NCBI RefSeq assembly: GCF_020991375.1
Contig: NZ_JAJLQZ010000003.1
Coordinates: forward strand, 248,001-312,000
Direction of reading: 5' to 3'
DNA length: 64,000 nt
Source: Glycomyces amatae
GTDB taxonomy: Bacteria > Actinomycetota > Actinomycetes > Mycobacteriales > Micromonosporaceae
The notes beneath the pieces were generated by a model. It was not told the DNA's origin, did no database searches, and saw nothing but the letters and a program-made list of their open reading frames with translations. Each line of letters begins with the position of its first letter. Positions within the stretch are counted from its first letter, which is position 1. Below, piece after piece: positions 21,067 to 28,794 of this stretch. The position numbers were made by a program, and so were the translations under genes.

Positions 21067-21117
21067 GGGCATGCCTTTCGTGGAATTCATGGACACGACG
21101 CGACAGCGGTCGACGAA

Positions 21118-21201
21118 CGACTTCCTCCGCCGGCATTACCCGGATCAGGTGTGAGGGTCTGCGGTCGGTTCCGCACTCTCAGCCCATCGGCTCCCCTGTC
21201 G
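21118..21201 (-). promoter_or_regulatory. TPP (THI element) riboswitch
   Basis: On the minus strand the conserved pieces occur in order: GGGGAGCC, GCTGAGAGTG, GACCCTCACACCTGATCC, GGGTAATGCCGGCGGAGG AAGTCG. CGAC/GTCG ends close stem P1. It precedes ykoE, so thiamin pyrophosphate should switch off the uptake operon. No U-tract follows, so control is probably at translation. Confidence 0.95.
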
Positions 21202-21322
21202 GCTTCGACGTTAACACCACGTGGTGCGGCGGTAGCGGGTGCGCGGGGCCGGGGTGGCGGGGAGCGCGCGGGGCGGCGGGAGCGGACGCGGGCGCGCCTC
21301 GCGCTGGCCGTAGATTGCCGGG

Positions 21323-21703
21323 ATGACCGCTGAACGGGATTGGGAGCTGGTGCGCCGGGTCGTGGACGCGCTGCCGGAGGGCACCTGGACCTCGTACGGG
21401 GACCTGGCCGAGCTGATCGGGACCGGGCCGCGGCAGGTGGGGGCGTTCATGAGGGACGACGGCGGCGTGCCGAAGGCGTACCGGGTGCTGACGGCGGGCG
21501 GGACGGTCTCGGAGGGGTTCCGCTGGTCCGACGGGCGCAGCGGCCGGGACGTGCCCGACCTGCTGCGCGACGACGGCGTCGAGGTGAGCGCCAAGGGCCG
21601 GGCCGACCGGTCCCAGCGCATGTCGGTCTACGACCTGAAGCTGCTGGCGGCCGAACTCGAGGAGGACGGCCCGGGCCCCGAGGACGATTCCGGCGAGGAC
21701 TGA
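21323..21703 (+). CDS. MGMT-like protein, alkyltransferase-like (ATL)
   Basis: 126 residues with the DNA-binding domain of O6-methylguanine methyltransferases (TWTSYGDLAELIGTGPRQVGAF), but the acceptor PCHR motif is replaced by PKAYRVL, without Cys. Such alkyltransferase-like proteins bind alkylated bases and flag them for nucleotide excision repair. The C-terminal acidic tail is extra. A TAGATT box seven bases before the ATG and no ribosome-binding site suggest a leaderless mRNA. Convergent with the DUF1349 gene. Confidence 0.82.
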   Translation: MTAERDWELVRRVVDALPEGTWTSYGDLAELIGTGPRQVGAFMRDDGGVPKAYRVLTAGGTVSEGFRWSDGRSGRDVPDLLRDDGVEVSAKGRADRSQRMSVYDLKLLAAELEEDGPGPEDDSGED

Positions 21704-21726: not shown

Positions 21727-21760
21727 CCGGGAATATCCGCAAATATCGTGATATTCCCGG
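21727..21760. repeat. Inverted repeat, 11-bp arms
   Basis: CCGGGAATATC (21727-21737) and GATATTCCCGG (21750-21760) with a 12-nt loop, between convergent genes. Possibly a bidirectional terminator. Its right arm is also the start of the repeated element at 21750. Confidence 0.7.
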
Positions 21761-21798
21761 CCTAAGGGACCCCTGGTGCAAAAGTACACCTGGGGTAC
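21750..21798 (+). repeat. Intergenic repeat element, copy 1
   Basis: A 49-bp block, 39 positions identical to 28682-28730. Shared core TAAGGGACCCCTGGT (21763-21777) and AAAGTAC. The block can fold as ACCCCTGGTG against CACCTGGGGT with one mismatch. It starts 46 bp after the stop of the ATL gene. Confidence 0.75.
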
Positions 21799-21846
21799 AA
21801 CATCCCCGCGAACGCGAGCCTCTCTCGCGCCCGCGGCGGTCGGCGG

Positions 21847-28661: not shown

Positions 28662-28681
28662 GGTCAATCACGATAAAGGAT

Positions 28682-28730
28682 GATATTTCCCCCTTAAGGG
28701 ACCCCTGGTTCGAAAGTACTCCGGGGATCC
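28682..28730 (+). repeat. Intergenic repeat element, copy 2
   Basis: 39 of 49 positions match 21750-21798, including the core TAAGGGACCCCTGGT (28695-28709) and AAAGTAC. ACCCCTGG can pair with CCGGGGAT. It begins 20 bp after the stop of the lipoprotein gene, the same arrangement as copy 1. Confidence 0.75.
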
Positions 28731-28794
28731 GTCATTCTTCCCCGGGCGGGAACGTGAGCGGTACCCGCATCGTGCGGGCGGTGCCGCGCCCCTA

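Follow-up and report, generated by a model that had tools for sequence, protein, structure and literature searches.

The repeated block at positions 21750-21798 of the window (the whole 64,000-nucleotide stretch of Glycomyces amatae DNA that was analysed) belongs to a dispersed intergenic repeat of Glycomyces that, with a probability of about 0.68, bears a RecA-NDp/PafBC-like promoter, usually pointing antisense into the preceding gene. The repeat forms a family with a preferred placement after genes, was inserted there as a block, and has on its opposite strand a promoter-like anatomy with exact spacing; at loci that have the same motif and lack the repeat, genes start at the same offset.

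As originally predicted, the block recurred at 28682-28730 with 39 of 49 positions identical, a longest run of 15 bases (TAAGGGACCCCTGGT) and the same orientation, and the two copies shortly follow the plus-strand stops at 21703 and 28661 of our own gene calls. When the 49-mer was shuffled 40 times and compared with both strands of the whole window, the best match scored 29 and the mean was 27.2; the next match of the real 49-mer after 28682 scored only 28. The block was found to be part of a unit of ∼75 bp (Table 1). Copy 1 is flanked by two stop codons, that of an alkyltransferase-like (ATL) gene on the plus strand and that of a DUF1349 gene on the minus strand. Copy 2 is preceded by the stop of a 224-aa gene, for which no family match was found at E 1e-5, and lies 5' of a GH2 beta-galactosidase gene. 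The inverted repeat in the left half of copy 1 was imperfect or absent in other copies.

Table 1. Features of the two window copies and of loci that have the motif outside the repeat. Unit limits are approximate, and positions refer to the window unless a contig of this genome (G000) is named.
Feature	Position	Strand	Remarks
Repeat unit, copy 1, type A	21729-21802	-	Promoter-like half and AT-rich half
-26-like box, copy 1	21794-21802	-	TGTTGTACC; family consensus TGTCRNACC, C to T here
-10 hexamer, copy 1	21781-21786	-	TACTTT (TAnnnT), 16 nt 3' of the box's first T
Near-invariant sequence, copy 1	21766-21774	-	AGGGGTCCC; transcript start predicted at 21774
AT-rich left half, copy 1	21727-21760	.	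Perfect 11-nt inverted repeat, CCGGGAATATC / GATATTCCCGG
Repeat unit, copy 2, type A	28663-28734	-	
-26-like box, copy 2	28726-28734	-	TGACGGATC; altered at the T of TGTC and within ACC
-10 hexamer, copy 2	28713-28718	-	TACTTT
Near-invariant sequence, copy 2	28698-28706	-	AGGGGTCCC; transcript start predicted at 28706
ATL gene	21323-21703	+	Pfam PF01035 DNA-binding domain
uvrB of this genome (L237)			Frame at the offset
uvrB of another genus (L224)			Frame at the offset
Helicase (L221)			Frame at the offset
SRPBCC protein (L220)			Frame at the offset
Transporter-like frame, by eye (L223)			Frame at the offset; -10 is CAGCAT
tnpB (L235)	G000:C16:16879		Frame at the offset
tnpB (L236)	G000:C18:58532		Frame at the offset
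498-aa frame (L238)	G000:C23:204628		GTG at offset 29; strict motif

The suggestion that the two copies represent a family of repeats was borne out, as far more than two copies exist: nine clear ones in this genome (6.17 Mb, 68 contigs) and at least 114 in the genus. The exact 15-mer with at most 2 mismatches was found at 8 places in this genome, one of which was dropped because, by eye, the remainder of the element was missing. In a blastn search of this genome, an 86-base query had 11 matches at E 10. Nine of the places were clear copies, and the remaining two, at E 5.6, proved to be a 19-base match and an inverted self-match. The exact sequence GGGACCCCTGGNNNRAAA was present in 15 of 19 Glycomyces genomes and in none of 12 genomes from elsewhere in the order (control 0), and a sequence model built from the nine copies (R1, E 0.1) found copies in 16 of the 19 and again in 0 of the 12. 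With a broader model built from 112 matches (R2, E 1), 20 of 22 Glycomyces genomes were positive, two of them (G012 and G015) weakly, and the 58 genomes from other genera of the family yielded a single match (E 0.002) in one genome. Of the 55 stretches with AGGGACCCCTGGNNNRAAARTA in a named collection, 53 were from Glycomyces, and the other two came from metagenome-assembled genomes and were without the remainder of the core. The repeat is thus nearly restricted to Glycomyces. A viral occurrence was rejected, as viral contigs gave one short-core match without the rest. Among the titles of the open PMC articles listed none was found on this intergenic repeat family, and the only match on intergenic repeats of Glycomyces concerned the Ms1 RNA.

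The 114 or more distinct copies came from 16 of the 19 Glycomyces genomes; their distinctness was judged by a 50-base key, and the loci were taken from among the R1 matches listed. Two core-less matches, both in L135, were left out as one copy split by an insert. By the protein encoded upstream, the 114 copies sorted into 30 groups, two of which are the same locus, and in many groups 5-13 genomes have the repeat at a common junction. The tails differed between types A (AT-rich), B, C and E/F (GC-rich).

When the core was read on the opposite strand, it had the form TGTCRNACC-N7-TAnnnT, followed by the near-invariant AGGGGTCCC. The pattern TGTCR-N11-TAnnnT was present in 100 of the 114 copies, TGTCR in 102 and TAnnnT in 110, two copies that could not be placed being counted as misses. 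In the 112 aligned copies the positions after TGTCR read N-A-C and then C (A 107, C 107, C 108), and the A of AGGGGTCCC followed the -10 hexamer by 6 nt in 80 and by 7 nt in 31. Beyond ±100 bp of the elements, about 1.0 Mb of strand from partly overlapping loci contained 28 instances of the two-box pattern. The strict pattern TGTCRNACCN7TAnnnTTG was found 12 times in this genome (seven repeats and five non-repeat places) and 0 times in reverse. Pairwise identity in 12 locus groups was 0.97-1.00 for AGGGGTCCC, 0.88-1.00 for the TA and most GACA/ACC columns, 0.50-0.75 for the left half and 0.33-0.46 for everything beyond, the conservation of the core being inflated in a partly circular way because the copies had been retrieved by these motifs. 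No start codon was seen where transcription of the repeats is predicted to begin. On the plus strand, a promoter of the sigma-B type with GGGTAC as its -10 was considered and rejected, as the A was variable and no fitting -35 was seen.

The consensus of the RecA-independent DNA-damage promoter is given as tTGTCRgtg-8nt-TannnT (PMC5656591). This promoter is recognised by PafBC (PMC8223512, PMC6789036), which is activated by single-stranded DNA and enables sigma-A holoenzyme to use promoters with a -26 motif (PMC11804915). The TGTCR box, the 11-nt gap to TAnnnT and the 16-nt pitch of the repeat are the same as in the consensus of PMC5656591, and here too the motif stands before uvrA and uvrB. 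It differs in that TGTCR is followed by NACC, where the published consensus has a weaker gtg (PMC5656591), and in that it belongs to an interspersed repeat, is followed by a fixed start sequence and mostly has no sense gene. As the gtg after TGTCR was not found, we call the motif RecA-NDp-like and do not class it as a member. A repeat-borne PafBC promoter was not evident from the titles of the open PMC articles listed.

The offset of gene starts was analysed at ten repeat-less motif loci, comprising the five strict matches of this genome and five in other genera among the loci inspected. Eight of the ten have a frame of 155 to 501 aa whose start codon, ATG or GTG, lies at offset 28 (7 loci) or, in one locus, 29 relative to the T of TGTC (Table 1; frames cut by the locus end were counted as found), and the chance expectation for ATG or GTG at the frame-start offset was 0.056. 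The remaining two (L222 and L234) had no long frame at the predicted start; in L222 the start of uvrA lies about 100 nt further downstream. In the repeats the A of AGGGGTCCC sits at the same offset, 28 or 29. Such leaderless starts fix the likely transcription start, and exactly that start is retained in the repeats. The uvrB gene of this genome has the NACC variant too, as the repeats do. If the promoter reading holds, TGTCRNACC would be a local PafBC-box variant with leaderless starts, which would help the prediction of damage regulons in this actinobacterial group.

Two of these loci hold IS200/IS605-type tnpB genes (PF01385, PF07282), which begin with GTG at offset 28 of TGTCGTACC-N7-TAGCCTTG, by sequence a putative RecA-NDp-like leaderless promoter; L236 adjoins a UvrA-like frame (by eye). 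An origin of the repeat from the ends of such tnpB elements was rejected, as the promoter motif alone was in common. The 498-aa frame of L238 is a candidate damage-response gene, and its called part of 484 aa had no Pfam or NCBIfam match at 1e-5.

The placement of the repeat 3' of genes, predicted from the two window copies, held for the family: 99 of the 114 copies follow a gene on the same strand in the orientation described, 72 of them between convergent genes and 27 between tandem ones, and the remaining copies lie between minus-minus (9) or divergent (6) pairs. Gene neighbours were taken from our own codon-based gene caller, and flanking genes were named partly by eye. By locus group (hand count, n=30), 18 junctions were convergent, 5 plus-plus, 3 minus-minus and 4 divergent. 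For comparison, 3 of 30 window gene pairs with gaps of 60-600 bp were convergent, as were 74 of 253 gene pairs in 53 Glycomyces stretches each holding a copy. In the stretches of this genome, 28 of 48 promoter-sense matches (some of them weak, and all positioned by our own gene caller) were antisense to the next gene, 18 were sense and upstream, and 2 were intragenic. The predicted RNA of the copy before ilvD (named by eye) would form a leader in sense orientation, about 160-190 nt long.

At the ATL locus the repeat was present in 15 of 22 Glycomyces genomes, in one of them interrupted, and absent in 7. In three of the 7 repeat-less loci the convergent genes abut or overlap (gaps of 1, 0 and -4 bp), and the repeat is therefore an inserted block, which at this locus often provides the stop codon. 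The empty sites were diverged beyond a comparison of target-site duplications. These empty sites also fit a small, self-persisting, non-autonomous mobile or minisatellite-like (MITE- or MIRU-like) repeat, whose promoter-like half serves the element itself or is a by-product. We consider this unlikely, though it is the strongest of the alternatives. In its favour are also two copies of one species (L248 and L135; genome G016, contig C12, ∼7 kb apart) that have an identical insert of about 36 bp inside the repeat, which suggests conversion within the pair, and the abundance of related units. The core pattern CCCNNGNNNCAANNNTRNNNNNNGGGTNYGACA with at most 2 mismatches gave 122 matches in this genome (reversed control 0), and with at most 1 mismatch it gave 76, 92 and 24 in three Glycomyces genomes; of the 58 genomes from the family's other genera, 12 had 1-2 such matches. 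The weaker relatives in this genome have only the 3' core in common, and among the matches listed most copies of this superfamily have CAnnnT, a poor -10. By our own count, at least 11 clusters of two or three units with a spacing of 80-121 bp occur among the matches listed, and in one pair the units are 80% alike over 55 bases at a spacing of 103 bp. Tandem F-type units were seen at three places within 24 kb (L208 and L209, G000:C13:24000-48000). Against a merely mobile repeat stand the absence of terminal inverted repeats, the MITE criterion, from the six stretches searched, the many copies at orthologous junctions and the detailed conservation across species.

Known small repeats resemble the Glycomyces repeat in part. 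Correia elements and other promoter-bearing small repeats or MITEs are small and intergenic, occur in many copies and have a built-in outward promoter. The Glycomyces repeat is likewise small, intergenic and multi-copy with a promoter-like half, and it differs by the lack of terminal inverted repeats in the stretches searched, the DNA-damage type of its predicted promoter and its conserved positions throughout the genus. MIRU elements are actinobacterial, lie at or after stop codons and occur in tandem. By these features the Glycomyces repeat, which is also actinobacterial, overlaps or follows stop codons and in its E/F types is tandem at about 100 bp, can be likened to them, whereas its promoter anatomy and its placement chiefly between convergent genes set it apart. 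With REP and BIME elements it shares the intergenic position 3' of genes and the many copies; it has no palindrome common to the family. The original prediction of a REP-like element thus failed as to form, for two of six stretches had no inverted repeat at all and the alignment had no conserved pairs.

The preference for 3' ends, with only 6 of the 114 copies between divergent genes, could also be expected of sites that are bound by a chromosome-organising or regulatory protein and are not promoters, a reading which we regard as improbable. CCCnnnGGG-like dyads, seen by eye between the boxes of many copies, and C-type copies within the parS cluster beside dnaA would suit such sites. The box spacing, the invariant TAnnnT, the fixed distance to the start and the matching offset of gene starts at repeat-less motif loci argue for a promoter instead, and parS itself is canonical and separate from the repeats. 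Identity with parS was rejected: the 7 sites of GTTTCACGTGAAAC in this genome all lie on contig C1, and none falls within the listed repeat copies. Six of these seven canonical sites lie in what is likely the oriC region (L193, G000:C1:70001-90000; dnaA, rpmH, parA, parB and trxA by eye), where C-type repeats were found at C1:80047, about 50 bp from a parS site, and at C1:83431.

The original prediction had also offered a conserved RNA. A conserved structured RNA or a terminator where the plus-strand gene ends is largely refuted and very improbable: although the repeat directly follows stop codons and two of the nine copies of this genome fold well (z -2.8 and -4.2), the other seven were near z 0 against shuffles, and RNAalifold on 112 aligned matches gave -1.67 kcal/mol with 3 pairs, 0 compensatory changes and no common fold. 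Of the joint finding named beforehand as speaking against that prediction, two copies only and no conserved structure, just the second half came true, for a common plus-strand fold was absent and copies were many. At Rfam gathering cut-offs the window gave only a TPP riboswitch and nothing for the repeat, and eight loci searched at E 1 gave three TPP matches and three weak sub-cut-off matches, none for the repeat. On the promoter strand, a stem of at least 10 within 200 nt occurred in 16 of the 114 copies, compared to 3 after one mononucleotide shuffle each, and a short CCCUUAAGGG-like hairpin lies directly 3' of the predicted start. Mainly through this hairpin, 5 of 12 locus groups were more than 2 sd below column-shuffled alignments, as likewise were the C set (one length) and the pooled A set (30 column shuffles). 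There were 0-5 covarying pairs per locus group; some RNA structure on the promoter strand may exist, although the case for it is not convincing.

For the RecA-NDp/PafBC-like promoter, the following course can be proposed. Upon DNA damage an activator such as PafBC would be loaded with single-stranded DNA and would link sigma-A to the -26 box, and RNA polymerase would initiate at the A of AGGGGTCCC. The resulting short noncoding RNA would in most copies (72 convergent, 27 tandem) be antisense to the adjacent gene at its 3' end. The driver would be PafBC or another WYL activator; the repeats presumably respond to DNA damage, transcription probably begins at that A, and the product may be a short RNA with a role. 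AGGGGTCCC and the left half are more strongly conserved than a promoter requires, which speaks against the promoter reading. A genus-wide damage regulon of more than 100 repeat-borne damage-inducible promoters, giving short noncoding RNAs with the shared 5' end (A)GGGGNCCC, mostly antisense at convergent genes, is conceivable but rather doubtful. If the promoter reading is true, a bacterial repeat family would be tied to the PafBC DNA-damage response, the family's retention at identical gene junctions throughout Glycomyces would be explained, and the effect of damage-induced noncoding transcription at convergent genes could be tested directly.

In both window copies the TGTCR box is broken, to TGTTG in copy 1 and to TGACG with further changes in copy 2, and because of this changed box they may have little or no promoter activity. 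Transcription from copy 1 would enter the ATL gene from its 3' end in the antisense direction. Further on, it would head towards the TPP riboswitch (RF00059, window 21105-21207, minus strand, 62.3 bits), which lies upstream of minus-strand genes that by eye resemble thiamine-precursor transporters.
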